From the NCBI GenBank assembly GCA_030144725.1, contig JASKMD010000026.1:8708100-8772099 (forward strand): 64,000 nucleotides of DNA. Direction: 5' to 3'. The position numbers were made by a program, and so were the translations under genes. Below the pieces are notes generated by a model. The model did not search any database, was not told the DNA's origin, and was given only the letters and a program-made list of their open reading frames with translations. This document shows positions 6,145 through 61,412 of the stretch, in pieces; positions within the stretch are counted from its first letter, which is position 1; the number at the start of each line of letters is the position of its first letter. The stretch is from Haematococcus lacustris. Lineage: Eukaryota; Chlorophyta; Chlorophyceae; Chlamydomonadales; Haematococcaceae.

Positions 6145-6350
6145 TGTGAGTTGTTGCCAGCTTACAATTAGCGCATGTTTGTCATGCCAACTCTAGACTA
6201 TAGTGCTGTTACAGGGTCAGGCAATGGTGTAGGTGGTAGGCGACCATGCCCATGTGCGTGCCATGTTCATGCCATGTGCATGCCATGTGCATGCCATGTG
6301 CATAGGGAACACCACACAGATAACACCGTATGCAGTGGTCCACGCTTAGT
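6145..6350 (+). repeat. 3' tail of Fanzor copy B
   Basis: Matches the reverse complement of the tails of copies C, D and E: TTTGTCATGCCAACTCTA, then a GGGTCAGGCA-type block, then GTAGGTGGTAGGCG. It then diverges through CATGTGCATGC repeats (6262-6302) to a CACACAGATAACACC block. The equivalent stretch of other copies holds the terminal hairpin. In known OMEGA systems the guide RNA comes from the region 3' of the nuclease gene, so this is where such an RNA would be sought. Confidence 0.7.
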
Positions 6351-25655: not shown

Positions 25656-25680
25656 CCCGTCTCCTTGTCCTTGGCTGTTC

Positions 25681-25805
25681 CGACTCCACACAGCCCAGTA
25701 ACACCATTTGAGTCGGGCTACTATGGCCCGCTAGTATTCCCGCTAGTGGCTGCTAGTGGGCACTACTAGTCTGGCTCAAATGGAGGCCCTAGTGAGGGAC
25801 AAGGG
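25681..25805 (+). mobile_element. Fanzor-family 3' tail only (copy F)
   Basis: Contains only the 3' terminal hairpin: CCATTTGAGTCGGGC near 25702 and GGCTCAAATGG near 25775 are the arms, followed by the shared terminus GGCCCTAGTGAGGGACAAGG. GGCTGTTC occurs at both borders (25673-25680 and 25806-25813), a possible short target duplication. The element strand is plus. Confidence 0.75.
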
Positions 25806-25849
25806 GGCTGTTCTGCATCTTGTCCACCGGTTGCAACCGGTTGGTTGAG

Positions 25850-26520: not shown

Positions 26521-26599
26521 CCCACACAGCCAACAGCCCCCACAGCAGCAGCAGCAGAGCCAGGGCAGGCAAACGCCACCAGCAAACCCAACAGTGGCT

Positions 26600-39560: not shown

Positions 39561-39877
39561 GCCAGACTACAGATAAGTGCGCTGCGTTGGTGCGAGAAGC
39601 GGGCCGGATAGTGCGAACCTTTTGCTCTTGCTAACTGAACGTACAAAATAAGTCCAGCTCAGAAGCTTAGCTGTGGTCGCTCCGAAGCGATTGCCTGCGT
39701 CTTGCCGCATGCCGCAAGCCATGATTCTTAGCTTTTCTTTTTTCTTGCATGCCTTCAACTGTCTACCTTCAACCTTCAACTGCCTGTTTCAACCGCGTTC
39801 TTGCTTTACCAGCAATCTATGCCACACAGTGCAGTATCCAGCGCACATGACAGACTATGTAACGCCACTGTCAGCCC

Positions 39878-40133
39878 CCTTGTCCCTCACTAGGGCCTCC
39901 ATTTGAGCCGGACCATTAGTGCCACTAGCAGCCACTAGCGGGAATACTAGTGGGCAATAGTAGCCCGACTCAAATGGTGTTATCGGGCTGTGTGAAGTAA
40001 ACCCAGTGCACATGGCACATGAGCGCCTACCACCTACATTAGTGCCTGACCCATTAGGGCTATTGTGTAGAGTTGGCATGACAAAACATGCACTGATTGT
40101 GAGCTGATGACAGCTCAGATGTGGGCCAACACA
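39878..40133 (-). ncRNA. Candidate OMEGA-RNA region in copy D tail
   Basis: 256 bp between the Fanzor stop and the element end, conserved in copies C, D and E. It includes a strong hairpin: arms CCATTTGAGCCGGAC (near 39899) and CCCGACTCAAATGG (near 39965) around a GCCACTAGCAGCCACTAGCG loop region. In known TnpB/Fanzor systems the guide RNA scaffold is encoded at this position. Transcription is not shown by the sequence; the call is positional inference. Confidence 0.4.
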
Positions 40134-41079
40134 CTACTGTGCCGCAGCAAGCTGCCGCTGCTGCTGGGCCTTTGGTGGCTTGTCTCGCAGCCGCTTGTAG
40201 CCCAGGCCAGGGTACTCCTTGCCCTTGGCTGGCAGAGCTCCCTGCTCTGGCCAGTAGCACAGCTCCAGCGGCCGCCACCTGCTCTCCCCAATGCGCTGCA
40301 TGTTCAGAGCTGCATTGCAGTCCCTGTCCAGCCACCTGCCTGGCTGTGGTGCTGGCTTTGCCTTGGCAGCCTTGCCTTTGGCCTTGCCTTTGCCCTGAGT
40401 GGGCTCAGCTGCAGGCTCAGCCTTGGTGCGCTTGCTGCGCTTGGCTGGCGGGGGAGTGCTGGGCCCTGGCTCTGAGGCTGCTGGCTGTGTGGCTGCCTGG
40501 CTGCTGCCTGGGGCCTGTGGGGGCTTGCGGGGGGCCACTACTGGGCACCACATCAGGCCCCGCACTGGCTGGTCATGCTGCTGGCTCCAGGCTGGGCGCA
40601 CCAGGCGCTGTTCCACCTGCCCTGCTTGGGGCTTCCAATCTGCAGGCACTGCTTGGGGCTTCCAGTGGCACTGAGTTTGTTCAGCTCCTCCTCACAGGGC
40701 TGCTTTCCATTCACTGCTGAGCTGACCCGGGTGGTGCGGTGCTCATCCACAAGCACCACCCTGCCCCGCCGCTGGCCTGCGCCCCTGGGCCTGCACACCA
40801 CCTTGCAGCAGGCCCGCAGCACCGCATCAGCACCCCACCCACCCCCAGTGCCAATGCCAGCTGCGCCAAAGAACACCACCAGCAACTTTGGTTTCCCGTG
40901 AGAATACACGGTTGTGTGACGCTACATTCCAGCTAGATTACAGTGCTGCCACCGCTATTGCCCCCGCTGCCGCTGCTGCTGCTACACCCACTACGTCAGC
41001 CAAGGCCATCAGCCATGACAATGCAGCAGCTACACACCGGGGAGGGGCGGGCCGGAATGGGCCAGCTACATCACCGCAG
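39878..41079 (-). mobile_element. Fanzor copy D with 5' segment and complete 3' tail
   Basis: Element strand is minus. 5' segment 41079-40885 (shared with copy H and with 59385-59475), then Fanzor sequence: FFGAAGIGTGG, VVLVDEHRTTRVSSAVNG (about 40775-40720), a frame break at an imperfect duplication of 27 bp (40624-40672), then RGLMWCPVVAPRKPP, a Lys-rich linker, RWLDRDCNAALNMQRIG, RWRPLELCYWPEQGALP, EYPGLGYKRLRDKP and a stop at about 40134. The tail runs to the terminus at 39878. A 15-bp direct repeat, CGCCACTGTCAGCCC, flanks it (39863-39877 and 41080-41094). The N-terminal half including RuvC-I is deleted, so it is non-functional. Confidence 0.9.
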
Positions 41080-41094
41080 CGCCACTGTCAGCCC

Positions 41095-41560
41095 GCCTCC
41101 CACCTTCTTGGTCTTGTGCTCCAAGCGGCCTTCGGGGCTTCAAACCTGGGAGTTTAGCCAGCCAACCTTGTTCAATGCTGTTATGTACACCTCATGACTG
41201 TCGGTCAAGCTCTTGCTCTTGCTCACACACAGTCAGTCTGTGAGAGTTTAAAAACGTGCTAACCCTAGTCATGTGAGAGACGTCTGTCCTGCCGCCGTCT
41301 GCTGGGTGTCGCAGGCCCTTTCAAGCACATACACCAACTCTTGGCCTCGCATGTTCGCCTGCCACCGGCCTTCGCACCGCCAGCTTTTACAGCTTCGCAC
41401 CGCCAACTTTTACAGCTTCGCACCGCCAACTTACTTGGGAACACCGTACATAGGCTGCAGGTCGATTGAAGTAGCCGAGGGTCCTGTTGAGCAACCAGCC
41501 CAAGGCACAGCCGGCATATCTCACCAGCCCGCCCTCCATGCGTTTGTGAGGTCAATGTAA
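41095..41560. repeat. Spacer with segment shared with copy E
   Basis: 41352-41475 contains GCCTGCCACCGGCCTTCGCA, a short unit (CTTCGCACCGCCAACTTTTA) repeated about three times, and CAGGTCGATTGAAGTAGCC. A shorter version forms the 5' end of Fanzor copy E at 46586-46678. No gene. Confidence 0.8.
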
Positions 41561-41723
41561 CATCGCTGTTGTTAGCCACCATTGCCAACCGCCATGCACG
41601 CAACACAGTAACTTTCAGGCTGCATGGCGCAGGTACGCCCCAAGTGGACATGCCACAATTTCGAGGTGCACCAGTGGAGGCTCTGGTGTTGTTTGAGGTC
41701 AGCGTCTGTGAGGCCCTGCCCAA

Positions 41724-44700
41724 TCAGGTCCAGAGCAGCAGGCAACCGCTGGTGTCGGCGCTGGCCAACCGGGACTCGTCAAAAGCCCAGGCCAGGCGGC
41801 TGACTGCTGCCCGGTGGCCCTGCAGCCCCGACACCTGGGCCGCTGCAGGCCCCACAAGCCCTGCTGAGCCGGGTCCTGGCTCAGCCCCCTTGCCCCGTCC
41901 AGCAGTAGTGATGTGCGTGTTGCTCAGCCGCTGAGGGCTGGCGGCGGTGGGAGTGTTGAGGGCATCCAGGCTGAACACGCCTACTTGGTGTTGAGCCAGG
42001 CAGCCGACAGCCAGGCGGGGCAGGCCGCTGAGGACTGACAAGGGGCTGGTCGCAACGGGGCAGAGCGGTCCAGAGCCAGGCAGGTGGACCCACAAGTGGA
42101 GCTCCAACCGGGAGTGCTGCAGGCGAGGGGAGGTGGGAGGTGAGGGTCTGGGTTTGAGGTTCTACAGAGCCACATGATGTCAGTGCAGGGCAACAGTGCT
42201 TGCATGCATCTCTTGGGCTGCTCTGGACCTGCAGGTGCCCCCCAATCCTTTGATTGTTCCTGACCCGTTGCATGGGTGCCTCACATGGCATGCCCCTTTT
42301 CCTCCCCTGCATGTAACCCCCTCCCCCTCCTCTCTCTAACAGCTGTCACCACCCAGTGCACCTGCCCCACGCACCGCAGTGATGCGCAGCACCGCCACTG
42401 TGCCTCCACTGGCACAGCCCAGCAGGATGGGGGTGCCGGAGGCTACGCAGTAGGCATGGTGCTGCAGGCCCCGCACTGCAGCGGGGGGCGCGGCGGGCGG
42501 CAGCATACGCAGCTTGGCCACGCTGGTGAGGCGCTGCAGGCTGCTGCCGCTGTGGCCACTGGACTCCACCCTCAGCAGGTGGACCCAGCCGCTGCTGTCA
42601 CCCGCAGCCACATGGTGCGGCCCACTGGCCACAGCTGCAGCAAGCGGAAGTGGCAAGGGGGTGGAGCAAGAGGGGGGAGTGTCAGCAGCAAGGGGCAGCG
42701 GGGGAGGGGGGGCTGGGGCTGCAGTGAGGGGGCGCTTAGTGTGTGGTCATGGTGGAGTTGGTGGATGTCCCGGTCACACCTCCCCTCACTCCGTCAGGCC
42801 ACCAACACCAGGGTGGGCTCAGGGCACATCAGGCGCTTCAGTCCCAGTGGCTAGCAGGCCAGCGGCAGGCTGTGAGCTGCCATGAGGCTTGTCCACGCAC
42901 TCTTCCACTGTGCCAGTCAGCCCTGGGAGGCTGTCAGGGGGTGCAGCCTGAGGGCGAAGTGCGCTGGGACATGCAGGGCAGCCCAGCTGTAGCAGGGAAG
43001 CTGAGCAGGGTCTGGGCGTTATGTGCGTACGTGCAGTCAACCCCACGCTCTCCAGACCAGCCAGCGACAGCAGGTTGATGAGCCGCACTACTGTGATATT
43101 GCAAAGGAATTGAAAACCCCTTGGCACACAGGTACCATTTGTTTCCTGACTTTGCTGATCACTGGCTGTAAGGCATGTGCTTGAGGCAGGGAGCAGGTGG
43201 TCAGGGTTGGGTTGGGTTATGCTTGGCCAGCAGCCCCACCTGTGACCCTGAGCCCCCTGACGCCGCCAAACATTGGCAGCAGGCTGACCTTCTGCTGGAC
43301 AGTGCCTGTGGCAGGCAAATGAGGACAGCAGGCGCAGGGCAAGCAGGCCACCCTCAGCAGCCAGCGGCACAAGCACACACTATGCATGTTCTCTATCATT
43401 GTGCTTGCTTAGGCTGACGACTGCTGGAAAGGGTTGTTTGTCTGAGCCTGCTCCTCCAGTGTGGTCTTCAGTGAGTTTTCAGTGAGTATGCTCTGGCTTC
43501 CCCTGCACCCCAACCCACAGCTGTGTCTGTGGGCAGAGCCAGGCAGGCATAAGCCGGCAGTGACATGAAGCACCCTGGAGGGGCTGGTGGCCCTGCTGCT
43601 GCCCCTGGGCGCACCTGTGCTGCAGTTGACCACCTCCAGGCAGCCCTGCCCAGTGCCCAGCAGAGCCAGGTTGGCATTGAGGCAGAACAGGGTGCTGCAG
43701 CACACGAGGCCGGCCTGCAGCCAGGTGGTGACGGCGCCGCAACCAGGGCAGGCTGTACAGACTGCCATGGCCTCAGCCCAGCCTCAGCCTCAGCAAGGCA
43801 GGCATACAGCAGGCTGCCGGCCTTGCACCCTGATGCCCTGTACGGCATGGCTGCACCGTGACATCGCCCCCCACAGCGGTGAACCAGGGCATACCTCACC
43901 TGACACATGGCTTGCACTACGCTACAGCCCATACATGCTTAACAGCACTGCCTGGAAGTGTGGGGTTTGATACTGTTATTTATGTCTGGCAGCACCTGCC
44001 TTTGCTGGAAGCAAAACACTGTTTGCTCTTAAGTAATGGGGAGGGTTAAGCATCGTAAGGGCGCCTGCCTGCCTGCCTCCAGAGAGCTGTGCTGCCCTCA
44101 CTGTCCTGCCAGCCCGGCATGCAGCCCCGCATGCAGCCCAGCTCCTCGTTGATGGCAGCCCTGGCCAGGCCAGCCCTAGCCAGGACCCTGAGGGTGGCAT
44201 CACCTGCCTGTATGGCTTGCATGCTAATGGTGCGAATGGCGGTGGGGCCCGTGGCGTCCCAGATGGCCACCCCCTCCTCACTGCTGCTCAGCAGCCTGGA
44301 GTTGTCAGCTGACCAAGTGAGGTCTGTGACAGCGCCTTGGTGGACACGTTGCGCCTAGCGCATGGGGAGTGGGGTGGAGCAGCGGCAGCAGCAGGAGTGC
44401 AACAGCAGCAGCAGCGGTGGCGGCAGCAGCAGCAGCAGCAGCAGCCACACATGCAGTGGCTATGGCGCAGCGATGTGGGCAGCAGCAGCAAGGCTGCCTG
44501 CCACCAATCCATCAAAGTGCTGCAGGCAGACCTGGAGGCCAGCAATGGCTAAGGTGTGCTAGGCAGTCGCACAGGCAGTGGATGGCAGCACGAGCTGAGC
44601 CTGGCCTGGGCTTGCTGGGGGCTAGCTGCCCGCACCTTGATGACATCCGGCATGCCAGCAGGCTGCAGCTGCACCTTCCACACGCCCCCCTGGCTGTCAG

Positions 44701-45857
44701 CCAGCACCAGCAGGTCGTTGCAGGTGTGGGCAAAGGCCAGGGCGGTGATGGCGCAGCCGCTGACCTGCACTGCCTGGTGGCGCCCTGCACTCAAGCAGGG
44801 GAAGGCGCAGGGTCCAGGGGGTGGGCCAGGGCACGAGGGGGGATAGCCGGGTCAGGCTGGCGTTGGTGTTCGTGGTGGCGCAATGTATTGCAGCGTCACG
44901 CTGAAGCAGCTGGCAACAAGTCACCTCCAGTGGTGAGGAAGGGTGGGTGCGCAGGCAGGTAGGCAAGCAGGCGGGCAGGCAACGAAAGGATGCGGTGGTG
45001 GTGGTGGTGGTGGTGGTGGTCGTCGCCAAATATAGGTTAATGAGGAAGGTGTGCGGGGAGCCCTGCGCATTGCCAGGCGCTGTGAGGTGCTAGTGAGGTG
45101 CGAGCCATGGGGCCGCAGCTGGCTGCCTCATCAGGCAGGGCTAAACAGCCCACAGCCTTGCCACCCACCCACCCATGAAACCAGAGGTGGCACCAGCAGC
45201 CAGGTGGCCACCCTCAGCCTGGCCTGGCCCAACCGCTTGTCTGGACTGGTCTGTCACTCTGTCCCCATTACTGCTGTTAGAAGCAGCAGCGGGGGCTTGG
45301 GCAGCAGTGGTGCTGGGCTGTTGCATGAGGCCAGTCTGGGAGGATCTGGGCGAGTGGGTGGCACTTGAGTCTGGGTGAGTGCTTGCATTAGGGCTCTTTA
45401 AGGGCTCAGGTGCATCAGCATCTTGCACCACACCCTCTGCCTGACTGCTGAGCCGCTCAAGGGCCACTGAAGGGGTGATAGTGAGGCTGCTGCTGCTCCT
45501 GCTGCTGCCTACGGGCACCCCTGCAGCCTGGCTGGGCTGCGGGAGCTCTTGTGAGCTGGTAGACAGGATGCCTGATGCCTGCCGTCTTGCTGGGGTGGAG
45601 GCTCCAGCAATCGTTGACTGTGCTGAGCAAGTTGTATCGTATTGAAATGATGAAGACTGTGGCCTGGGCACGGTGGCGGTGCTTGCGATGTGGAGCTGCA
45701 GCGCATTGCATTCAGCTGCTGCATCGCGTCGCAGGTAGCTGCGCAGTTCATCGTACGACAAACCGCTAGAAAGCCTGAATTGTTGACGAAATGCTACGCA
45801 ACGGGGGTTTGCGGACAATAGACAGTCACGCAACGCTTCATAGTCATTCAGCCCCAT
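41724..45857 (-). CDS. WD40-like repeat protein
   Basis: Start at ATG 45857 (MGLNDYEALRDCLLSANPR, SYDELRSYLRRDAA), followed by a Ser/Ala-rich region to about 45180. WD-like strands are scattered over later exons: AITALAFAHTCNDLLVLADS (about 44750), GAVTDLTWSADNSRLLSSS and EEGVAIWDATG (about 44330-44250), FCLNANLALLGTGQGCLEVV (about 43680), HHVAAGDSSGWVHLLRVE (about 42610), TPILLGCASGGTVAVLRI (about 42420), and the last repeat HRAAVSRLAWAFDESRLAS and ADTSGCLLLW before the stop at 41724. Such proteins form beta-propeller scaffolds; the partner is unknown. Exon limits are only approximate, and one polyGln-encoding CAG run (about 44390-44450) is intronic or near-intronic. The N-terminal region is not recognised. 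Confidence 0.65.
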
Positions 45858-46124
45858 CTCAGCTTCCGAAATACAACATGTGAAAAACACTGTAGTAATA
45901 GATTGGGTCTCTCTTTGACGGGTTTGGACCGTAAGGGTCATCAGGGTTGCCTCCTAGGACAGCCCCTCCCCCAGCCGACACCTTGATTTCGGTAATAGCT
46001 GCAGCAGAGCGGCCCCACAGCAGGTGTACCAGCAATGTCTCAAGACATTGCCCTGCTATAGCGATTACCCGTAGGTCAACTGTACGTCACCCTGACGGCT
46101 TGCTAGCCATGGCAGATATTGGCA

Positions 46125-46688
46125 ACCCCCTTGTCCCTCACTAGGGCCTCCATTTAAGCCGGACCAGTAGTGGCCACTAGCAGCCACTAGCGGAAATATA
46201 CTAGTGGGCAATACTAGCCCGACTCAAATTGTGTTATTGAGCTGCGTGGAGTAAACCCAGTGCACATGCCACATGAGCGCCTACCACCTACATTAGTGCC
46301 TGACCCATTAGGGCTATTGTGTAGAGTTGGCATGACAAAACATGCACTGATTGTGAGCTGATGACAGCTCAGATGGGGGCCAACACACTACTGTGCCGCA
46401 GCAGGCTGCTGCTGCTGCTGGGCCTTTGGTGGGTTGTCTCGCAGCCGCTTGTAGCCCAGGCCAGGGTACTCCTTGCCCTTGGCTGGCAGAGCTCCCTGCT
46501 CTGGCCAGTAGCACAGCTCCAGCGGCCGCCACCTGCTCTCCCCAATGCGCTGCATGTTCAGAGCTGCATTGCAGTCCCTGTCCCTGTCTACATTTGCCTG
46601 CCACCGGCCTTCGCACCGCCAGCTTTTACAGCTTACTTGGGAACACCAGACATAGGTTGCAGGTCGATTGAAGTAGCCTGTCCATATG
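46125..46688 (-). mobile_element. Fanzor copy E, 5'-truncated, chimeric 5' end
   Basis: Element strand is minus. Encodes only DRDCNAALNMQRIGE, RWRPLELCYWPEQGALP, YPGLGYKRLRDNPPK and a Gln-rich end, then the common tail to 46125. At its 5' side the Fanzor sequence stops at about 46580 and switches to a segment also found at 41352-41475. A 14-bp direct repeat, GGCAGATATTGGCA, flanks the whole insert (46111-46124 and 46689-46702). Confidence 0.88.
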
Positions 46689-46714
46689 GGCAGATATTGG
46701 CAGCCCAGCCCACA

Positions 46715-49700
46715 TTACGGCACTGTCACCGGCTGCCCCAAATCCTCCAGGTCAGGGAGGCCAGCTGCAGGGAGCAGGCCCATGGCTTCCTGCGCAGCCT
46801 GCCGCCGGGCAGCTGCCACTGCCGCCGCACCCAATGCCGCAGCCCTGGATGGCCGGCAGGGCAGCCGCTGGCCCACCTTGTTCCCAGAGGTTAGCTCACC
46901 GGCAGGGCCAGGCACCAGCAATGCTGCCTGACATACAACGTCAGCGTCCCCCTGCCCCTCACTCATGGACAACTGCGCCTGACACACTTGGCGGCCAGAC
47001 CGCCGCCGCCCACCCCCCTGCTGCTGCTGCTGCTGCTGCTGCTGCACGACAAGCTGACCGCACGCTCCAGCAATGTCGCTGCCCTTCTCCTGACGTACGG
47101 TGCTGGCCAGCCCATACTTGCTCCGTAGCACTGCCTGGAAGGCTGCTATGGCCTGAGGGGCAGGGGCCTGGTAGCGCCGCACCCCAGCTGCTGCTGCTGT
47201 TGCGGACCCCTCCCCCAGGCCCTCACCACCTGTCCCCACCTCCCCTGCATGGCTGTGCGGGGGCCCAGCTGACCCTCGCCCCTTGCCGCTGATGGCATCA
47301 GGCTGGGGTTGTGTCACACAGTCTATGCCCGTTCCCATACTGCAGGTACCACCGTCTGCTCGCTGCTTTGCACAGCCCCGAGGGAAAGGGGCGTGGCTGC
47401 CATCTATGCAGCCGCACCCCTTGCTAGCTGTTGGCTGCGAGTTGAGCCCTGTAGCTGCTGTGGATGCGGGTGGTGAGGCTGCAGGGGGCGGGTGGTTTGC
47501 TGCTGTGCAGGTGCTGCCAGAGGTGGCTGGAGCCTGGGTGGTAGGGGTGGGCGTGTAGGAGGGTGTGGCAGGGCCGCTGGGGTCCACTGGGTTCCATGGG
47601 ATCAGGTTGATGAGAGGCCGAGGCCGGTGGCTGGCTAGCAACGCCCCCAGCTGGTCAGCATGCTCCTCCCCTGCACATCAAGCATGGCATGGCAGGCAAG
47701 CATGCTTGCACCTGGATGGCATGGCAAGCATGGCCATGTACCTGCTCATCACACTCCTTGCCCAGCAGGTCACACACATGCACATGTGGCAGCTTGCAGG
47801 CAGGCAGTCTACAAGCCTGCCCTCACCCTTGCCCCGTTATGGGCCTGCCCTGTACACAGCAGCAGAGCTGCCAGGCAGCCAGGCAGCTCTTCCTGCCTAG
47901 ACAAGGTCCATCAGCGGCCTGACCTGTGTGCTGTTATCACAAGCTCTGCATGTACGCAAGGGACGTGCAATGCTTGTTGGAGGTCACTGCTTGCATACCC
48001 CTGCCGGGCAAGGTGCAGTCGTCAAGCAGGTGCAGTTACCAGTGGTGTCATATGCCATGATGCCACTCTCCACCTGCTGCCCTCCCTCACCATCATTGAC
48101 GCCTGCCAGCAGCACATACTCCATAAACACCCGCATGCCACTGGCCTCCTCATAGCCACGCACTGCCTGCATGCCAGCGCACACACACCGCGTCACCGGA
48201 GCTGGCCAGCAGAGGCAAGCGTCCAGGGGTGGGGGCTCAGGCCAGTCGAGTGCTGGCTGTGGGGCCCAGAGAAGGGGTAGGGTGCAGCAGCTGGGTCAGC
48301 CCTCCTGCCCTCACTGGGGCTGCTGTCCACCTTGGTGCGGGTTTCACGCTGCCCAGCCGCAGCCCAGCCTGGCCAGCTGGCCTGCAGCGCTCTGGCTTCC
48401 ACGCAGGAACCAAAACCACCAAAGCCACTGGGTTTGCAACCCTAAGCTACCCTAACAACCCTGAGCTCCCCAGAAGCCTGCAGCAGGTCAGCAGATCAGC
48501 CAGGAGCCTGCAAGGCTGGCATACAGACATACCAGCGTCCGCTGCCCAACAACCCTACACTCCCCAGAAGCCTCCGGCAGGTCACGCACCTCCATCAGTG
48601 GCCCCAGCTGCCAGGTTGCGGCGGAGGGCACCAGGCTGCAGCGCAGCTCCTGGGAGGGGGCGTGCAGGCTCAGTGCCAGGCTAACCCCCTGTAGCACACC
48701 AGCTGCGCAGAGGGTAAGGCACTGCTGCCCGATTGCTTGCCTCCCTGCCAGCCTGCCCACTCATTAGCTGGCCTGCCGCCTGCTGCTGTGTACCTGGCAT
48801 CTTCACGGCTACTCAAGTAGCCAGAGCCATAGGGCAGGGAGGGAGGTGATACGGCATGAAGCACCAAGGCAGCAGCAATGCACAAGCACGCCCCCTGCAT
48901 TGTAAGCAGCAGCCAAGTGGAGCCTGCTATACTCCTCATCAGCCTCAAACTGCCACTCCCTGTTTCCCTATTTGCCTGCCTAACCACCCTGGCACCCAGC
49001 CACCTACTTACCCACCGACTGACCCACATGGCAGCCTGCATGCCTGCAGCACTGCTGGGCCGCTGACGCTGCTGCTACTGCTGTGTGGCCGAGAACATGG
49101 GGCTGTCCCTGCCCAATCCCAGCCTAGCTGCATTGCAAATTCCATCGCTGACACAAGGCTGACACCAGCTCTGCCGGGGTGCCCTGTCAGCCAGGGCAGT
49201 TGTACTCAGCTTGCAGCCCCTCAGCAGAGTGTCAATGTCCATGAGCCAGGTGATGGCGGCTGCCAGGTGAGCAGGACGACCAGGGCTGTCCCCCCAGCAC
49301 CTTGAACCAGGCCTGTGCCAGGCTTACCCGGGGTCCTGCTTGCTTGATGTTTTCCTGCTGGTCATCCCGTTCTTGCCTGATGTTGAGTTCTCACAGTGCG
49401 CTGCTTGCGCTGTCTCACCGGCATGTCCTGGTGCAGCTGGCGTATGCGGGGCAGCACGCCCACTGTGGAGATGGTGACGTGTCGCCGGGCCAGGCCCCAT
49501 AGCTCAGGGTCAGTCAGGGCCAGCACTGCGTCGCGCACTGCGCTGTAGTTGGCCAGGGGCTCACCCATACCCTGCGGGGCCAACCAGGGGGGCGGCACAC
49601 ACACCACACACACACACACATATCACACACACACACAAACACACACCTTGAAAGCTGCCCCTGCCCTGGAGGCAAGGCAAGCTGCCTGGGTGGTGTGCTG

Positions 49701-52927: not shown

Positions 52928-53956
52928 GGTCACCCCGGCCGTTGGTCCCGCCAATCCGTGCCAGGCCTGACGCTCACACCACGCGCTAGTGAAGGGTAGC
53001 TGACAGATAAGTCACCCGGTAAGAATTCCGACAATGCTGCGAAAATTTATCTAACATACGTCGGTATTTTGCCCAGCCTCCGAACCAGGCCCCCCCGCTT
53101 CAGGACCTTACCCAATACGATTAGATGGTCCGCGGGCGCAGCGCTGCGCCCTGTCAACCCGAGCCGTGACCCTGTGACCTCTCACACACAACGCAGCACC
53201 TGAACGCCGAACGCAGACTGTGTGCCTCATAGTGTAGTGTCTTGCAGGTGAGGCGCCAGCCAGCAGCCACACAGCATTCGCGACCAGCCATAGCATACAT
53301 GCGCCCTGGTCGAGCGAAAGGAGCAAAAGGAAAGGTGCGCTGTTGACGAGCTAGCGGAACAGCGAACAATCGATTGGAAAAGTCTGTGGCTGCTTGCAGG
53401 TGGACTTCCAATGGCTAGGAGGCTACGCAGCGAAAAGGTGCAGCTAGTGAGCGCAGCCACAAACAACAAGGAGCTTAGAGCGGCAGAGCGGAGGAGTATT
53501 GGAGGAGCCTGGAGCGCAGGAGCAGTTGTGAGCCAGGAGCCAAGAAGTGCAGCCAAGGAAAGCAGCTTGGCAGAGCTGCCAGGGATAGCCAGGAGCAGTC
53601 AGGAGCAGGCATGAACAGTTGTGAGCGGCAGCAATAAACGGCACCCATGAGCAGCGCCCTCCCCTCCTTGCCATCCCCCCCTTCACCCCACACCCAACCC
53701 CCTCCCCCCCCTCACACACTCCAATTAGCAAGTGGTGAGTGGCTATCCCTTGCAACTATGCAGCTCTATGTACCTAGTCTGACCCCTAGCATGCCCTTGT
53801 TTGCTGCAGGTTCCAATGGTCACACCCCTTCCCTTTTCCCACTACCACCACTAGCACCTCCCCTTCCCTTCCCTTTTCCGACACGCCCACCCCCTCCCAG
53901 TCCGCCGACAAACCCCTCACGCCCAACCCCATCCCCAACTCAATGGTACCCTCCCT

Positions 53957-54185
53957 CCCCATCTCCCCTCCCCTCCCCTCCCCTCCCCTCCCCTCCCCTC
54001 CCCTCCCCTCCCCTCCCCTCCCCTCCCCTCCCCTCCCCTCCCCTCCCCTCCCCTCCCCTCCCCTCCCCTCCCCTCCCCTCCCCTCCCCTCCCCTCCCCTC
54101 CCCTCCCCTCCCCTCCCCTCCCCTCCCCTCCCCTCCCCTCCCCTCCCCTCCCCTCCCCCCCCTCCCCTCCCCTCCCCTCCCCTTG
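53957..54185. repeat. (CCCCT)n array, about 225 bp
   Basis: About 45 nearly perfect CCCCT units, i.e. AGGGG on the minus strand, with one CCCCCCC irregularity near 54160. Open in several frames only because the period is short; not a gene. Confidence 0.97.
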
Positions 54186-54938
54186 GCTGGCCTGCGCTTG
54201 TAGCCACAATGCCAATGCTACTGCCAGATGTGCTGGTGTTGTTAGTGCCTTTGCTATTGCTAATGCTGTGCCAGTGGTGGTGCGGCTGCCAGTGGGACAT
54301 GACATGGCAGGTCTGACGTGCAAGGTGAATGCCTTGATGGCTTGGATGGCAGGCACGTCAACAACAGCAGTGACATTGCTAGACTGTGGTGGACAAGCAT
54401 GCAGCTAGGAGCAGCAGCTAGGAGGCGCTTGGAGCGACAGCCAGACTTTAGGTGAGTGCACATGCTGTTAGCCCAGCCTGCCAAACTCTGGTCATGCATG
54501 TCCTTGTTAATAAGCTTGTTGGGGCTGAGCTGGCTGATGTTTGCTTGCAGTTGGAGGCAGCTGGAGCATGACAAGTGTAGCATGGCTTGGTGATTGCAAG
54601 CAAGGCCTTGAGCGAGCACCCTGGAGCGGGCAGCCTGGAGCGCGCAGCCTAGAGCGGGCAGCCAGGAGCGGCAGCCAGGAGCGGCACCCAAAATTGGCAG
54701 CCAAGGGTGGCAGCCAGGAACAGCACCCTCTCCTCTCCTCCCCTGCCCACCCCTACCTTGCATCATCTCACATCCCTCATCCCACATCCCAGTCAGCTGC
54801 CATAAGGCAATAAGGCAAGCGCAAGCCTCCATGAGTCCGCTGTTGTGTGGTTAGTGAAGCATGGCTGCGGCAGCCAGGAGTTGGGTGCTATGGGGCAGTA
54901 AATGCAAGCCCATCCCTTCTTTGTTGCAGGTTTGACGG

Positions 54939-56088
54939 TCACCCTCCTGCCTTTTGGCCCCTTCCTCCTAGGTTCCCTCTCCTGTCCCACCACCTCCAAA
55001 TCTTCCCTCTCCTGTCCCACCACCTCCAAATCCGCTTGGGCGGGCAGCATGGAGCGGGCGCTAGTAGTAGCGACCAGCCAGCCCACTCTAGCCATGCCAT
55101 GCCCACACACCACACTAATCCAGCCCATCCCTCCCCCAAGGGGACGGCAGTAGGAGAGCCAAGCCAAGCACATGGGGGGTTGCCGGTCTGTACTGTGCGC
55201 CATAGCAAAAGCGGCACCCAAAATTGGCTGGTGAGCAGGGCAGAGGACAAGGCAGGGGTCTCCTGCTGCAGCCCTGGGCTGGTGAGCAGGGCAGAGGACA
55301 AGGTAGGGGTCTCTTGCTGCAGCCCTGGGCTGGTGAGCAGGGCAGAGGACAAGGTTGGGGGTTGCTGCTGCTGCTGCTGCAGCCCTGGGCTGGTGAGCAG
55401 GGCAGAGGATAAGGCAGGGGGCTGCTGCTGCATCCCTGGGCTGGTGAGCAGGGCAGAGGACAAGGCAGGGGGCTGCTGTTGCTGCAACCCTGTCTCTGTG
55501 TGATGGTCAATGTGAGTGGTGAAGGGGGTATCAAGAGGGAGGTGCTCATGCTGCAGTTCTAGGCTAGTGGGCGAGTCTGGGAGGGGGTGGAGTCCTGGCT
55601 GCTGCATTGCTACCCTCTTTTGCCGCTTCTTTTCTGCACTCTTTCCAGGCCTTTCTGGGCAGTTGGCCTGCAGGGAAGAACATGTTGTCATGATGATGCG
55701 CTGGATGGGGCTGCTACACCAAGCACACCTTCTTCTTTTTCAGTAACAGGAGTGTTTCCAACCCCGTCTTGCCCTCATGAAGCATTTGGGCGATGAACGC
55801 CCAGCCCTCAGGCTCCTCACTACTAAGCTGTGTCAACATGAACAGTATGTCATCAAGCACACTTGGGTGTTTCTCGTGCACTTTGCTGAGGACTGGGCCG
55901 CGAGCAATCAATAAATCGCAACTCCTATTCTTGGCTGCGGAATAGCCGATGAGCTCAAGCAATGGGTTGCGTTCACTGGCTCTTATAATGAACTCCTCAA
56001 ATGAATTCCGTTTCCGGCTTTCGGCTTTCAGGCGCCTCCTCCTATCCTGCTTTTTGGCCTCGCTAGTACCACAACCATCTACTTCCAT
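54939..56088 (-). CDS. Transposon-borne gene with C-terminal peptide repeats
   Basis: Not recognised. Exon 1 (56088 to about 55733) encodes a basic start (EAKKQDRRRRLKAESRKR), then FEEFIIRASERNPLLELIGY, SCDLLIARGPVLSKVHEKH, PSVLDDILFMLTQLSSEEPE and GWAFIAQMLHEGKTGLETLL, ending in Lys codons at a GTGTGC donor. Exon 2 (from about 55680) encodes CPERPGKSAEKKRQKRVAM, a Pro-rich part, then five or more units of SSALLTSPGLQQ(Q/E). The reading ends at 54939. Exon 1 looks like a folded helical protein; the repeats are the minisatellite at 55226-55490. It may be a captured host gene or the element's own protein. Confidence 0.5.
55226..55490. repeat. Minisatellite, units of about 51-63 bp
   Basis: Five units beginning GCTGGTGAGCAGGGCAGAGG at intervals of 51 to 63 bp, varying by multiples of three through CTG number, so the minus-strand frame is kept. 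Confidence 0.92.
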
Positions 56089-56835
56089 AGCAAGGGCTCA
56101 AGTCGGGTTATCGCATAACAGGGCCCAGGCTGGGCCTGGCAGGGAGTGAGCGGTCACATGTTTGGGTGGCTGCGTCGATCGCAGTGTTCGACCTACGGTT
56201 GGCACACAGGTACTAAGACAATGCAGGGTTGATGCAGCGTTAGCTGTTTGGTGCGTGTTTCAAATGTCCACCTAACTGGTGGACAAAATGTCCACAAGTT
56301 CGGTGGACATTTTACCGAGAGGATTGATTGGTTCGGCGTTCAGGTGCTGCGTTGTGTGTGAGAGGTCACAGGGTCACGGCTCGGGTTGACAGGGCGCAGC
56401 GCTGCGCCCGCGGACCATCTAATCGTATTGGGTAAGGTCCTGAAGCGGGGGGGCCTGGTTCGGAGGCTGGGCAAAATACCGACGTATGTTAGATAAATTT
56501 TCGCAGCATTGTCGGAATTCTTACCGGGTGACTTATCTGTAGCTGAGGCTATCGCGGTAACTCACGCGCGCTGAAACTCGCGTTTTGCACTGAAGCCTCC
56601 CAGATCACTCCGCCCGCCATTCCCGCGGACTGTGAACATGGTCGCTCGCTGCAGCCTGGGGCTCAACAGGGTGCGACCGTACGTGGGTCGCAGGTCGAAG
56701 CGCAAGATTCCCTGGGTTGGGTCGGGACCCCTCATGGCCCGGGCCCTTCCTGACACCTGCCTGACCCTGCCTCCATGCATGCAGAGCATCTCACTGAGGT
56801 GTCAGCAGCACCGTGCGTGGACTCTGATAAAGTCC

Positions 56836-57423
56836 TTTACACAACCTTGTCATGGATGTCCCGGAGCCGGGACGTGTGCAACTGGCGTAGCACCGTGCGG
56901 CATGCGATGACAGCCTAGTCTGCTACACGCCCATCATGCCAGTTTCCTTGTAAACGAAATAAGCCCGACAGCCGATCAGCCGGTCGCTCTCTCAACATCG
57001 CGCAGCGCAAGTGCATTGTGGAGGTGCTTCGCAATGACGTGGTGGACTCCTGACGCTCTAAGGGCAAGTACAGCCGGCGATACTAATTCCTCCCGGCTCA
57101 ATGAACCCGACGTTGTTTCCTTTGCGTAAGCGCGCACCTAGTCCTATTTCTTTGGAAGTGTTGGGCCCAAATGGTCCTACAGCCTAGAAGTACGACTGAA
57201 CTAGAGGTAAACTCAGACATGTCAAGCTCTCTAGGCTACACGAAGCTTGCTTTATTGCATGTATTCCCACCGTTACATAAAGTATGATGTCTCGTCCTTG
57301 GTGCATCTCTCAGTGTAGGAATAGCATAAGTTGCCATGAAGTTATTTACCTGGTGCATAGCTACTCCCACCACCACCACTTCCTAACCTACCCCTGATCT
57401 GCCCAGCCTCAGCCAGCCACCTT
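56836..57423. other. Intergenic, nothing recognised
   Basis: No ORF or repeat of note. Confidence 0.5.
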
Positions 57424-57978
57424 ATGGGTTGCCACAGCAAACGCATTAAGGCCATCAAAGCCAATGGTGCTCAGGGGAGTGCTTGTGCAACAGCAGCTCG
57501 GCAACAACATGCCCTCATGTCTGCAGCTGCTGCCACAGAGGCAGAACTTGACGAGGCCAGATCCCAGCAGCCTTCTGTTAGTATGGGTTATGTCAGCACA
57601 TGCTAGGGCCATAAGCGCCCACGCAGCTGCCTTGGTCGGGTCGCCCAGCAACAGGTGACCCTAGACCTGCAGCAGCTGCAGGGTGCCCAGCACCAGCTGG
57701 CTCAAGACCATCAGCACCTGAAGGGTGCCCAGCAGCAGCTAGCTCTGGACCAGCAACAGCTAAAGGGTGCCCAACAGCGGCTAACTCTAGACCAGCAGCA
57801 GCTGAAGGGTGCCCAGCAGCAGCTAGCTCTGGACCTGGAGAAGCTGCAGGGTGCCCAGCAGCAGCAGGCTCAGGCCCTTGAGCAACTGCAGAATAGCAGG
57901 ACGGGGCTGGAGCGCAGCGAGCTACTGTTGCGTCAGCACATGGACGCATGCATGAGGCGAGAGCTTGACCTGCTGTGA
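57424..57978 (+). CDS. Coiled-coil protein with heptad-like repeats
   Basis: 57424-57600 (MGCHSKRIKAIKANGAQG, then a Gln/Ala-rich part) is probably joined by an intron to 57655-57976, which encodes repeated 14-residue units of the type LDQQQLKGAQQQLA (42 bp, at least five) and ends LERSELLLRQHMDACMRREL. Strong coiled coil. It lies just upstream, on the same strand, of a fragment homologous to the transposon ORF at 12275-12778, so it may belong to the same kind of element. Confidence 0.45.
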
Positions 57979-58029
57979 CCTGCTGTGACATGCTGTAACC
58001 TACTGTTCCCCATGTGCTATTGACCTGTT

Positions 58030-58270
58030 GTGCCCTGCCCCATGTGCAGGGCACACACCATGGACCTGCCCAGCCATACAGGCATGCAACCTTGCAACAT
58101 TGCAAGCTCCTACATGACCTTGACTGTGCATCTGTTGAAGGAGTATGCCCGGGGGTGCTTGGGCTGGAAAGGCAAGAGGTTGACGCAGAACAAGCCATTG
58201 CTCAGGGCTGACATACTGGAACATCTGAGGTGGGAGCAAGAGGTGGAGGAGGATCAGGTCGGGTCAGGTC
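58030..58270 (+). pseudogene. Fragment homologous to the transposon ORF at 12275-12778
   Basis: The plus frame reads CNIASSYMTLTVHLLKEYA, then LGWKGKRLTQNKPLLRAD and ILEHLRWEQEVEEDQ, colinear with the C-terminus of the minus-strand ORF of the 11801 transposon. It begins with CPMCRAHTMDLPSHTG, a short Cys motif. It ends abruptly in a GGTCGGGTCAGGTCAGATCA run. Confidence 0.7.
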
Positions 58271-58292
58271 AGATCAGGTCTATGCACCACCG

Positions 58293-59334
58293 TTACTTGC
58301 CTGGGTTGGAGTAATGCTGCTGCATGGCCACCGCCAGCTGCATGGAGTGTGCGTCGATGTTGTTGGCGTCACCCATCAGGTTGATGCTGCCCAGATCCTG
58401 CAGCTTGACCAGCAACGCCTCGTTGCTGGGGTCCTCAAAGACTGGCATGAGCATGGGGTGGCGGCGCTGTCCTTTGCGCACAAGGCGCCGCTGCAGCTGG
58501 TTGTAGACTGTCTGGAAGTTGGGGTTGGCGAAGAACTTGCATAAGTCTTTCAGCTGCCTGAGCATGACTGGGTCCTCGCAGTCAAGGGGCAAGGGAGGGC
58601 CAGTGGGTGTTGCGGGTGCAAGGGCTGCCAGGCGGGCGTTGCAGCGCCTTTGGGGGGTTGCACGACTGGCTCAGGTTCTGACTCTGACTCCGAGTCAGAC
58701 TGTGGCTCTGGCTCAGAGCCAAAGTTTGACTCGGAGTCAGAGTCGATGTCACACTCCATGCTGGCAGGCTGGGCAGGGGCACGCGGGGGGAGTGGGGGTA
58801 GGGGGCTTGGGGGGGGTGCACGGCTGGAGGCTGAGTGGCGCTGCGGTACCCCGGGATGGGGTAACCCACCAGGCACGTTAGGAAGATTCTGAGCACAAAC
58901 AACGACGCAATCACGCGAAGCTGGGAGTGAATTTCAGCCCGCAACTGGAGGTGCGCCCGTAGCTGGCGCCTAGTCTTCTTGCACCCGCGCAGCACAGCGC
59001 CCTCCGGGACCTTGATTACCTGCGGCCATGCACAATCAACATTTTGACAGGCCACTTTGACAGGCCAAGACACGATGCGGGGACACAAACAGTGCGGGGA
59101 CACACAAGGCGGGCGCGGCCTGTCACCTGACGTTTGCGCGTGGTCCAGCCATCCCGACGCTCCTGTCGTTGCTTGCCTTGAGGGGAACGAGACGCTGCGA
59201 TGGAACCAGCGGGAGCGAGGGTTACCACACAGCGCGTAAATCAGGGAGCCCACAGTCGGCTAGGGACACGAACCTTTCTGTTTTTTTTCGGGTTCTTTTT
59301 GTGCTTGTCGCCGCCCTTCCGCTTCTCCTTAGCC
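58293..59334 (-). CDS. Basic/acidic nuclear-type protein, several exons
   Basis: Start ATG at about 59334 (MAKEKRKGGDKHKKNPKKNR), then an exon with GKQRQERRDGWTTRKRQ (about 59165-59120, GTGACA donor), then VIKVPEGAVLRGCKKTRRQL and AHLQLRAEIHSQLRVIAS (about 59020-58880), a strongly acidic Ser/Glu repeat (SDSESESEPEPVVQPPKG, about 58740-58660), and CEDPVMLRQLKDLCKFFAN, NPNFQTVYNQLQRRLVRKG, INLMGDANNIDAHSMQLAV up to 58293. Lys-rich N-terminus and acidic centre suggest a nuclear or nucleolar protein. No family recognised. Confidence 0.45.
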
Positions 59335-59370
59335 ATCACGCGATGCGCATCAAGACGGGCGGTGGCCTTT

Positions 59371-59475
59371 TCAAGCAACTTGGGTTTCCCGTGAGATACA
59401 CGGTTGTGTGACGCTACATTCCAGCCAGATCACAGTGCTGCCACCGCTACTGCCCCCGCTGCTGCTGCTGCTACT
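59371..59475. mobile_element. Third copy of the Fanzor 5' segment
   Basis: TTTCCCGTGAGATACACGG, TGACGCTACATTCCAGCCAG and ACAGTGCTGCCACCGCTACT match the 5' segment of copies D (40885 onward) and H. It is cut off at 59476 by a GGTCACC transposon; after the transposon TGCTGCGCCC resumes for only a few bases. Confidence 0.75.
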
Positions 59476-60997
59476 GGTCACCCCCGCCATTGGCCCCGCA
59501 ATTCACTTTTTGACACCGTCTTTGATCCGATGCACGTAATTCTTTCACCATTGGGCTCTACATCCCACAACGGTGTCGCTAGCAGGTTAGGCCCTCTTTT
59601 GTCGATTGTACTGCATTGTCTCGACGACTTGATTAGCTTCGCAATGTCATTCTCCACCTGTTTGTATGCTTGTCGCAATAGGAGAGGTGGATTGGTGGCC
59701 GGAGGCATGTCCGTGCGGAGCAGCCTTTGCTACCGTCGGACTCGCAACTCGCGATTACTTCCCAGGTAAGCACGGGGTGCTATTTCTTAACGCGTGTTGC
59801 ATACGATGCTAACACATGCAACCAAATTTGCTGACCTGCACAGGTGCTTGGCTGTTTTGAGGATCAGCACCAATCCCACATCAGCCCTAGGGTCTCCCAA
59901 GCAGCAGTGCAGCTAGGCAATCAGACCTTGAAAACAGTGAGCTCGAGGTGAGTAAGGTTGTATTATACCTCACCTTGTCTAGGTCAGTTTGATGTTCACT
60001 CGCACACTTGCGCAACGCGTGACAGGCATGAACAACTTAGGGAAGCACACAGCAGTCCCCAACCTGATTTTCATGCATTGTTTTTGATAGGTAATGTCTC
60101 TTATGTGGGCCTGACATGGTTATGTGTATTTTGCTGCAGGATGCCATCCAAAAGATACCAGTGCCCAGCCCAGCCCAGCCCAGCCTGATTTGGTGCCATG
60201 GGGCATAAGCAGCAAGGCAAGGTGCTTAGCAGTCCCGTAGTGAGTGTTAGCTATAGCAAGGAGATGCAGCCAGTCCTTGCTTGTTGTGCACATAGCATAG
60301 GTGGTGCGTGAGGCATGAGTCATTGTGTTGTTGTGGTGGTGGTGTGTTGTTGAGGTGGTGGTTGAGGTGGTGGTGGTTGTGTGGTGTTGCCACCTTCTTA
60401 CATCGATGCATGTGCTTGGCATCAGCGATACATGTCTTCTGTAGTGGTGTTGCAAGGCGTTTGAGCATCGATACATGTCGATGCTGTAATGGTTTTGCGT
60501 GACATGTGCCTGCTGAAGTTGAGGGAGAAGGTTGAGGCACCACGGCACATGTAACAATGAAAGCAAAAGCCATCCCGAGCCATCCCGAGAACATAATGCC
60601 AAGTATTGATGTAGTGCTGTCATCATGTAGCTTGTATTTGCATAGAGTCATGCCGCGACGTAAATGAGGTAAGGGGTGCCAGCTGGCTGACTTGTGCGCA
60701 TATTCACGAATTATATGCTCCATGCACTGACATGCAAGCAGGCGTACTGCACTTGTGCCGTTGGCTTACGGCGTGCGTAGAAGGATTGCCAGCCTCGTCT
60801 TATGATGTGCGTGAGTCTTTTAGGAGCGGAAGGCACAGGTCAGGTTTGGGCGGGCGCCGATCTGAGTTAGTGTTTTGCGGCTGCTGGGTGCCGCATACGC
60901 CTGTTACACCCGGCTGCGTCAAAACTTTGTCACGAGCTACACGGAGATTCGCGCCCCAGACCGTCTCACATTTGCGGGGCCAATGGCGGGGGTGACC
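59476..60997. mobile_element. 1,522-bp DNA transposon with GGTCACCCCCGCC ends
   Basis: Perfect 24-bp terminal inverted repeats (GGTCACCCCCGCCATTGGCC at 59476; reverse complement ending at 60997). The ends are a variant of those of the 11801 element but the interior is unrelated. Flanks TACT and TGCT could be a mutated 4-bp duplication. ORFs inside are weak; 60300-60380 is GTGGTG-rich. Confidence 0.88.
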
Positions 60998-61126
60998 TGC
61001 TGCGCCCTTTATTGACCTTCAGTCACACAGTGCACACCCAGTACACATTAGCAAACTTACAGTCTGCACCTCCATGTGTCATGCCATGTCATGCCATGCA
61101 AGTCTGGTGAAGCTAGGGGGTCAGCC

Positions 61127-61174
61127 CCCTTGTCCCTCACTAGGGCCTCAATTTGAGCCGGACCAGTAGTCGAC
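61127..61174 (-). mobile_element. 48-bp Fanzor-element 3' end (copy G1)
   Basis: Only the terminal 48 bp of the element (CCCTTGTCCCTCACTAGGGC, then CTCAATTTGAGCCGGACC), read here from its 3' end. It lies between two perfect 16-bp repeats, AGCTAGGGGGTCAGCC, at 61111-61126 and 61175-61190. Confidence 0.9.
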
Positions 61175-61264
61175 AGCTAGGGGGTCAGCCTGGACACAAT
61201 GCCATACAGCAGCACAACCTGCAATACAGCAATGTCATACAATGCAATACGCTCATCACTGCCC

Positions 61265-61412
61265 AGCACCTTGACCCACACTAGGGCCTTCATTAACATG
61301 GACCACTAGGCGTGGACCACTACAAAATGGCACAATTTGTGTGGAGTTTCCCCATGCCCATGGCATGCACGTGGGCATGGTCGCCTACCACCTACACCAT
61401 TGCCTGACCCCT
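61265..61412 (-). mobile_element. Fanzor-family 3' tail, B-like variant (G2)
   Basis: Reverse complement matches the tail of copy B: GGTCCACGCCTAGTGGTCCA, GGCATGGTCGCCTACCACCTACACCATTG-type blocks (61375-61405) and a CACTAGGGCCTTCATT terminus. No ORF part and no clear flanking repeat. Confidence 0.7.

Follow-up and report, generated by a model that had tools for sequence, protein, structure and literature searches.

Results and Discussion

In a 64,000-nucleotide stretch of the Haematococcus lacustris genome (contig JASKMD010000026.1, positions 8,708,100 to 8,772,099; hereafter the window), insertions carrying parts of a Fanzor-like gene share a fixed 3′ terminus, stop at variable or foreign-capped 5′ ends, are flanked by direct repeats, meet a (GG)CTG motif at their 3′ junction and share a predicted fold. 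The evidence leans to target-primed reverse transcription; we give a probability of roughly one half to the reading that the 3′ part of an abundant Fanzor-like element has given rise to these insertions as non-autonomous retroposons. Chlamydomonas and Haematococcus belong to one algal order. The phenomenon is not new, since Fanzor insertions with this syndrome were described from Chlamydomonas reinhardtii as the families CRe-1/2/3 (Bao and Jurka, 2013; PMC3627910).

Insertions With a Common 3′ Terminus

The following copies were delimited in the window:

9124..9698, − strand, insertion C: 3′ part of the last Fanzor exon and 3′ UTR; repeats 9124-9146 and 9677-9698; unrelated 42-bp 5′ piece at 9635-9676
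25673..25813, + strand, insertion F: 3′-most ~125 bp retained; weak 8-bp repeat GGCTGTTC at 25673-25680 and 25806-25813
31239..31480, + strand, insertion H: internally deleted, with the 5′ region fused to the 3′ end; 12-bp repeats 31239-31250 and 31469-31480
39863..41094, − strand, insertion D: 15-bp repeats 39863-39877 and 41080-41094
46111..46702, − strand, insertion E: foreign 5′ piece of about 105 bp, then last exon and 3′ UTR; 14-bp repeats 46111-46124 and 46689-46702
61111..61190, − strand, insertion G1: 48-bp insert between 16-bp repeats 61111-61126 and 61175-61190
61269..61410, − strand, G2: degenerate 3′-end relative, kin to copy A
5278..6330, + strand, copy A: last exon after an apparent intron end; right limit approximate
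1..565, − strand, copy B: same region as A with the same start position; cut by the window edge
58900..59475, − strand, copy I: opening exons of a Fanzor-like gene with the 5′ region; left limit approximate

The terminal 20-mer GGCCCTAGTGAGGGACAAGG occurs seven times in the window at up to three mismatches, against 0.01 expected, and none of 100 shuffles reached seven. It is exact in D, E, F, H and G1 and carries one mismatch in C and two in G2. That C, D, E, H and G1 share a 3′ terminus, as the initial annotation had proposed, was borne out, coordinates included. The match at 61269-61288 in G2 is a seventh end, absent from that earlier list. The insertions end in ACAAGGGGG or ACATGGGG, followed by the target, and no poly(A) or simple-repeat tail was found at their 3′ ends.

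A fixed 3′ end combined with a variable 5′ end is seen in six copies of one window. G1 retains about 48 bp and F about 125 bp; in C and E homology starts only within the last Fanzor exon, each break being preceded by unrelated sequence. The foreign piece of E is mostly related to a dispersed repeat at 41357-41476 (93.6% identity to 41430-41476, 100% to 41357-41395). A 5′ region (from TCCGGCCC) is common to D and H, both of which carry internal deletions with short identities at the joints; in D this region runs into the last exon in the Fanzor frame (HGKPKLL-VVFFGAAG), with a later frameshift and a stop at 40131-40133. The variable 5′ truncation proposed earlier therefore describes G1, F, C and E well, whereas D and H are better termed internally deleted. 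None of the copies with an intact 3′ end extends across an intron. Apparent introns are kept in A, B and I, all lacking such an end; the 3′ end of A has diverged and has no intact terminal motif, and the 5′ side of I is interrupted by a terminal-inverted-repeat element.

Flanking Repeats and Target Motif

The longest exact repeats abutting the fixed end measure 16 bp (G1), 15 bp (D), 14 bp (E; 18 bp if one mismatch is allowed), 12 bp (H) and 8 bp (F). For C, a repeat of 22-23 bp had been proposed; the repeat is present, but only 18 bp are exact from the scan point (19 with the preceding G) and the greater length needs an indel of one G. No direct repeat of at least 8 bp was found for G2 within 2.5 kb. 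Perfect repeats of 12-19 bp, putative target duplications, are accordingly present at five of the seven ends (C, D, E, H, G1), compared with repeats of at least 12 bp within 1.3 kb at 2% of 2,000 random positions, and in all five the second repeat copy coincides with the 5′ break in homology. The possible 8-bp repeat of F is there as well but is weak: since its 8-mer has two further + strand occurrences in the window, F on its own proves nothing. The excess of repeats argues for retroposition, as do the 16-bp repeat around an insert as short as that of G1, the chimeric structure of E and the foreign scrap in C.

On its left edge the repeat carries CTG in all six targets (C, D, E, F, H, G1) and GGCTG in five of them, for which a binomial calculation gives about 2e-11 at fixed register, with the motif picked post hoc and G2 left out for want of a repeat. 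At the 3′ junction, targets and the last nucleotides of the element (GGGGGCTG) are identical over 3-6 nt. The specific site lies at the fixed end, and no motif is seen by eye at the opposite repeat edge; a motif at the fixed end only is the geometry of target priming, and its constancy likewise speaks for retroposition.

The same data bear on two other explanations. Fragments of Fanzor-transcript RNA or cDNA might have been patched into breaks, perhaps made by Fanzor itself, with the repeats arising from fill-in of staggered ends. Repair of this kind would suit the foreign scraps that C and E carry at their 5′ joints and the internal deletions of D and H with their short identities, but we consider it improbable, because a fixed 3′ end together with CTG in six of six targets calls for a specific enzyme. 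Movement of the IS607 type or by cut-and-paste, through a serine recombinase or a DDE transposase, was already disfavoured and has very little to recommend it: some Fanzors do travel in such elements (PMC10711439; PMC3627910), but here 5′ ends and repeat lengths vary, and inverted matches between the two ends of D or H do not exceed 6 bp. The earlier argument that Fanzor/TnpB elements of IS607 type should move without duplication holds in that the anatomy observed, direct repeats included, does not suit serine-recombinase movement of an IS607-type Fanzor2 element; it chose the wrong null, however, because Fanzor1 proteins are reported to travel with many transposon types (PMC3627910; PMC10711439).

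The Structured 3′ End

The 3′ region of the insertions is predicted to be structured, as exemplified by D:

39869..39990, − strand, structured 3′ end of D: CAGCCC, long hairpin, CCCTAGTGAGGG hairpin, GGGGGCTG

The 149-nt stretch 39872-40020 at this end gave a fold z-score of −3.3, and the same fold is predicted for all four copies in which the 3′ region is complete (C, D, E, F), again in favour of retroposition. Covariation is weak, with one two-sided change and 152 of 500 shuffles equally good, which counts against it; a search of Rfam returned 0 families. The small CCCTAGTGAGGG hairpin, a subterminal feature reminiscent of Helitron2, is present in six of six copies, 6-9 nt from the element end. 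Upstream of it, about 23-26 nt from the end, lies CCGGCTCAAAT, with a near-inverted partner, ATTTGAGTCGG, some 55 bp further up. We also note an IS608-like reading, in which the internal CAGCCC 5′ of the hairpin foot would be a putative guide for GGGCTG.

The Encoded Protein

The encoded protein is a degraded nuclease, probably TnpB/Fanzor-like, for which Haematococcus has many gene models. GIDPG and DRDCNAALN, read as RuvC motifs, are present in many of the proteins. The TNB domain (PF07282) exceeded its cut-off in one of six proteins (P0122; 26.5 vs. 26.3 bits, over 14 residues), stayed below it in four and was absent in P0123; in the aligned members the match was weak in 15 of 22 (E up to 1), with none in P0177. 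A search of PDB sequences matched no Fanzor or TnpB chain, NCBIfam gave no match of weight for four proteins, and structure prediction of P0177 from a 22-row alignment was unusable (pLDDT 33). Compared with Fanzor/TnpB nucleases that have an omega-RNA at their right end, the likeness thus lies in the probable protein family, judged from the weak TNB match and the two motifs, and in an element boundary formed by a 3′ end that is predicted to be structured and RNA-like, whereas the zinc-ribbon cysteines are mostly lost in the Haematococcus proteins.

In a census of proteins, the last-exon query yielded 618 matches and the query from the RuvC-I region 506 (the best 120 of each being listed, under nearly the same length filter), which implies that long copies are common and truncation not overwhelming, a point against retroposition. 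Within the best 120 of the 618 last-exon matches, motif counts fall towards the 5′ side (D.NAA 98, DE.RT 106, GA.IG 101, EQ[FL]F 84, RuvC-I 47, GVCKQ 12, KASND 2), in a list ranked by score from the last-exon query.

Proposed Target-Primed Reverse Transcription

Under retroposition, the reverse transcriptase of some LINE would most likely recognise an RNA ending in ...GGGGG or ...GGGGGCUG through its structured 3′ end, which comprises the long hairpin, the small CCCU-AGGG hairpin and a closing CAGCCC:GGGCUG stem. A nick in the bottom strand at CAGCC(C) would provide a primer able to anneal to the final 3-6 nt of the RNA. From this primer copying would begin, and it would end early or switch template to another RNA, and a second, non-specific nick 12-19 nt away would give rise to the target duplication. 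The RNA intermediate, the LINE partner, primer annealing and template switching are what we infer from the anatomy of the insertions.

No partner LINE is in view, as a simple regex for YxDD-type reverse-transcriptase motifs found none in the 295 window frames of at least 90 aa, and a Pfam scan of 20 window frames gave leucine-rich repeats only and no reverse transcriptase; likewise, no LINE sharing the insertion tail was found in the window. Nor was a RepHel partner with the same ends seen in the window, where an HUH regex returned one chance-like match (33615-33896). Beyond the window, exact 3′-end patterns had 0 matches in viral_contigs and genome_contigs and the pattern of D had 0 in phages; of 29 pattern stretches for a Fanzor relative in viral_contigs, none was confirmed. 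The LINE-type target priming proposed in the initial annotation agrees with the anatomy of the insertions, but the missing tail and partner LINE, the Helitron-like 3′ hairpin and the publication of the same syndrome with Helitron2 as its cause weigh against it.

Non-autonomous units with a fixed 3′ tail that spread by target priming are known from Chlamydomonas, where SINE-like elements with LINE-derived tails exist (SINEX; RandI and L1 LINE-tailed retroposons; PMC3747384), a further point in favour of retroposition. Their LINE partner is named and their ends are simple repeats, (ATT)n being an example; the present insertions show neither feature. Among green-algal LINE families, the table of that paper gives repeat ends for 8 of 8 RandI, 6 of 6 RTEX and 10 of 15 L1 families, five L1 families being without.

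One-Ended Helitron2 Transposition as an Alternative

The most serious competing explanation, to which we give somewhat less than even odds, is that a RepHel/HUH enzyme nicks at the fixed 3′ end and copies DNA leftward from there with no set stopping point, the duplication arising from repair of a staggered target. This is how the CRe-1/2/3 syndrome was explained by its authors. In these multi-exon Fanzor1 families the 3′ end is described as fixed, many copies are truncated at the 5′ side, some have internal deletions or short foreign pieces at the 5′ end, and target duplications of about 7-19 bp follow TTTT, and their relatives are verified Helitrons sharing about 200 bp at the 5′ end, 50 bp at the 3′ end and the target motif (PMC3627910), which counts against retroposition. 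The apparent introns of A/B and I would be in keeping with copying of DNA, and the CCCTAGTGAGGG hairpin with the CCGGCTCAAAT/ATTTGAGTCGG pair recalls the Helitron2 layout of a hairpin and a 3′-ATIR 20-30 bp from the end (PMC3627910).

The Haematococcus insertions match the CRe families in all these anatomical features, but differ from their published description in that the site is (GG)CTG instead of TTTT and no Helitron ends were identified. Helitron2 elements use T-rich sites in Chlamydomonas and have asymmetric terminal inverted repeats (PMC3627910), whereas no inverted repeat of 8-15 bp was found between the 5′-most 60 nt of D or H and the last ~73 nt (best exact matches 5 and 6 bp; the starts may not be true 5′ ends). 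CRe copies ending exactly at the consensus 5′ end are reported without duplications (PMC3627910), unlike D and H, which keep most of the 5′ region and still carry them. Helentrons, too, are reported to insert without duplicating their target (PMC4067079), so that both the absence of duplication and the T-rich target expected under Helitron2 depart from what is observed. Finally, Helraiser, a tested Helitron, depends on its 5′ end, where it starts, and is variable at the 3′ side (PMC4778049), a polarity opposite to that of the present insertions.

A further relative in anatomy is the Fanzor1 family MCi-2 of Mucor circinelloides, with near-identical 3′ parts, differing 5′ parts, no terminal inverted repeats and 11-12 bp target duplications opening with the fixed motif ATAATTNNNN, the mechanism of which was left open by its authors (PMC3627910). 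It shares with the insertions the fixed 3′ part, the varied 5′ parts and the motif-led duplications, but is fungal, has a 6-kb common 3′ region with an intact Fanzor and includes a partial Crypton transposase in one subfamily.

Implications

Amplification of a Fanzor gene as a retroposon, the conclusion of the initial annotation, is a live hypothesis, backed by the fixed 3′ end and the repeats and challenged by the Helitron2 alternative already in print. A search of open-licence papers retrieved no account of Fanzor elements as retroposed. The mode of Fanzor spread in eukaryotes is unsettled. Only one account was found in which Fanzor elements have truncated 5′ ends and target duplications of variable length, and it invokes an unusual Helitron mechanism that was put forward when no active Helitron had yet been reconstructed and tested. 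The question can now be tested directly in another alga, in which the target motif differs, 5′ ends are capped by foreign sequence and an insertion of 48 bp has a clean duplication.

It is conceivable, if rather far-fetched, that the 3′ structure doubles as the scaffold of a Fanzor guide RNA and as the tail copied by the LINE, with the guide just past the fixed end; insertion would then write the target, in the form of the duplicated sequence, into the guide position and arm Fanzor against the empty allele. If true, retroposition and RNA-guided homing would be united in one element, and the "one-ended Helitron" families of Chlamydomonas would be the same thing misread. If retroposition is the correct reading, a class of "Helitrons" would need re-reading, and genes for RNA-guided nucleases would ride on LINE machinery.

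Shared 3′ terminus, flanking repeats and target motif

A scan of the window (64 kb, 59% G+C) found seven ends with at most three mismatches from the 20-mer proposed in the initial annotation, against 0.01 expected, and the insertion coordinates of that annotation were right on re-check against the window:

9124..9698 (-), insertion C
39863..41094 (-), insertion D
46111..46702 (-), insertion E
25673..25813 (+), insertion F
31239..31480 (+), insertion H
61111..61190 (-), insertion G1
61269..61410 (-), degenerate seventh end, G2
5278..6330 (+), 1..565 (-) and 58900..59475 (-), Fanzor-like copies A, B and I, without intact 3′ end
41357-41476, dispersed repeat lying 260 bp upstream of D and containing a 23-bp tandem unit CTTCGCACCGCCAACTTTTACAG; a close relative is the 5′ end of E

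Perfect direct repeats bound C, D, E, H and G1 as had been claimed, but at lengths of 12-19 bp instead of 12-23 bp, while F is flanked by a shorter repeat of 8 bp and a search at G2 for one of 8 bp or more found none; these and all other element statistics rest on one window and seven ends. The 5′ copy of the repeat starts with GGGCTG in D, C and E, with GGCTG in G1 and F, and with CTG alone in H. This motif coincides with the 3-6 terminal nt of GGGGGCTG at the 3′ junction, where E has GGGGGTTG; inspection by eye revealed no motif at the opposite edge of the repeat. The target identity may be explained either by an enzyme preference for (GG)CTG or by a needed pairing of the target's nicked strand with the RNA end, and the data are compatible with both.

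Anatomy of the insertions

G1 consists of a 48-bp insert between 16-bp repeats, and the insert of F is about 125 bp long. In C and E the homology breaks inside the last exon. At the 5′ side C starts with 42 bp and E with about 105 bp of other sequence, and most of this piece in E is related to the dispersed repeat at 41357-41476. D and H have a common 5′ region starting at TCCGGCCC, preceded by 23 (D) and 10 (H) unshared nucleotides; in H this common region is joined to the 3′ terminus. According to our reading of frames and GT/AG borders, D would have a putative exon 1 (HGKPKLL) fused with the last exon (VVFFGAAG), copy I reads as having putative introns near the gene start, and copies A and B as having one putative intron ahead of the last exon. 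D is not an intact gene, as its Fanzor frame shifts inside the last exon.

Copies B (1-565) and A (5278-5801), in opposite orientation, both start at GCCATGCCTAACC while their flanks differ; they probably go back to a template with this 5′ start or to a common ancestor. Shortly past F, at 25974-26713, lie two diverged Fanzor last-exon pieces (72-77% identity); pieces of another repeat within this interval recur at 31592-31772. A 1.5-kb element at 59476-60997, whose terminal inverted repeats GGTCACCCCCGCCATTGGCCCCGCAA are perfect over 26 bp, adjoins the 5′ region of copy I and seems to interrupt it; on its far side the Fanzor-like sequence CTGCTGCGCCC resumes for 11 nt. The tip of a 2-kb element at 11801-13782 (inverted ends of about 150 bp, 88% identical, start GGTCACCCCGGCCATTGGCC) is related to it, with further pieces at 52928-53212 and 56331-56826. 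The window also holds a 251-bp inverted repeat (23694-23944 and 24722-24972, 100% identical) with more repeats close by, and a 220-bp (CTCCC)n tract at 53963-54183 (99% matches).

Predicted structure of the 3′ end

The 149-nt stretch of D ending at GGGGGCTG folds at -63.7 kcal/mol, whereas shuffled versions average -49.5 (z -3.3, 0 of 200 shuffles). One predicted architecture, comprising a closing stem CAGCCC:GGGCTG (with wobbles in E and 5 bp in C), a long hairpin and CCCT-AGTG-AGGG, recurs in all four copies with a full 3′ region (C, D, E, F). Across six related sequences, 96.8% of alignment cells pair, versus 29-47% when the fold is slid. These sequences contain one two-sided change, a level that 152 of 500 shuffles equal, so covariation is no proof that the 3′ end acts as RNA.

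Within 39869-39990 (-), the 3′ hairpin is preceded by an internal CAGCCC (39985-39990) with complementarity to the target motif GGGCTG, resembling the right ends of IS608, where a guide pairs with the cleavage site. Fanzor/TnpB RNA-guided nucleases have an omega-RNA at the right end of the element. For IS200/IS605-associated TnpBs, PMC10711439 places the scaffold ends at transposon boundaries.

The probable Fanzor/TnpB-like protein

The last exon of D matched 944 proteins, the best 120 of which were all from Haematococcus lacustris (identity up to 95%). Three protein searches together gave at least 321 distinct proteins among the matches listed. The protein-level census covers 120 matches per search, and both the ranking and the gene models bias it. 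Long H. lacustris models, e.g., P0123 and P0177, contain GIDPG, DEHRT and DRDCNAALNMQRI, which presumably serve as RuvC motifs, and have partly lost the zinc ribbon (SSAVNG...WCPVV); given this loss of cysteines, many copies may lack nuclease activity. PF07282 (Cas12f1-like TNB) exceeded the cut-off in one of six models tested, by 0.2 bits, and was weakly detected in 15 of 22 aligned members. In a PDB sequence search, neither the model P0122, a 497-residue part of P0123 nor the profile matched a Fanzor or TnpB chain. Because of these results and an unsuccessful structure prediction, a Fanzor/TnpB-like identity is probable but not proven.

Mechanism of insertion

The initial annotation had read these elements as products of target-primed reverse transcription, to which we assign about an even chance (roughly 0.5). 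This origin is supported by the polarity, the 48-bp insertion of G1, the foreign-capped 5′ ends and the specific site at the fixed end, as well as by the differing behaviour in published work of Helraiser, which requires its 5′ end and for which the 3′ end is not essential (PMC4778049), and of Helentrons, which are reported to make no duplications (PMC4067079). Counting against it, no repeat tail was found at the fixed 3′ end, no partner element was seen in the window, and none of the copies with an intact 3′ end extends over an intron. One-ended Helitron2 transposition is a serious, somewhat less probable alternative, in line with the hairpin-plus-inverted-repeat layout of the Haematococcus 3′ end and with Chlamydomonas Fanzor families having ends in common with real Helitrons, as PMC3627910 reports. 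Speaking against it are a target that differs from the Helitron2 target in Chlamydomonas, duplications even on copies keeping most of the 5′ region, and the result that the first 60 nt of D and H have no inverted match of at least 8 bp in the last ~73 nt.

Precedents in Chlamydomonas and Mucor

Haematococcus and Chlamydomonas belong to the same order. In the C. reinhardtii Fanzor1 families CRe-1/2/3, according to Bao and Jurka (2013; PMC3627910), 5′ truncation is frequent, internal deletions occur and 3′ ends are almost always intact; short non-Fanzor segments lie at the 5′ side, insertion sites follow TTTT or T-rich tetranucleotides, and duplications of about 7-19 bp (some 44-443) accompany about 70% of CRe-1, 57% of CRe-2 and 10% of CRe-3 copies. 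One-ended Helitron2 transposition was inferred there for these families, while MCi-2 of Mucor, in which the 3′ part is common, the 5′ parts vary and duplications of 11-12 bp start with one motif, was left unclassified (PMC3627910). Since nearly all of these CRe-1/2/3 features recur here, the Haematococcus insertions belong to an already described kind of element.
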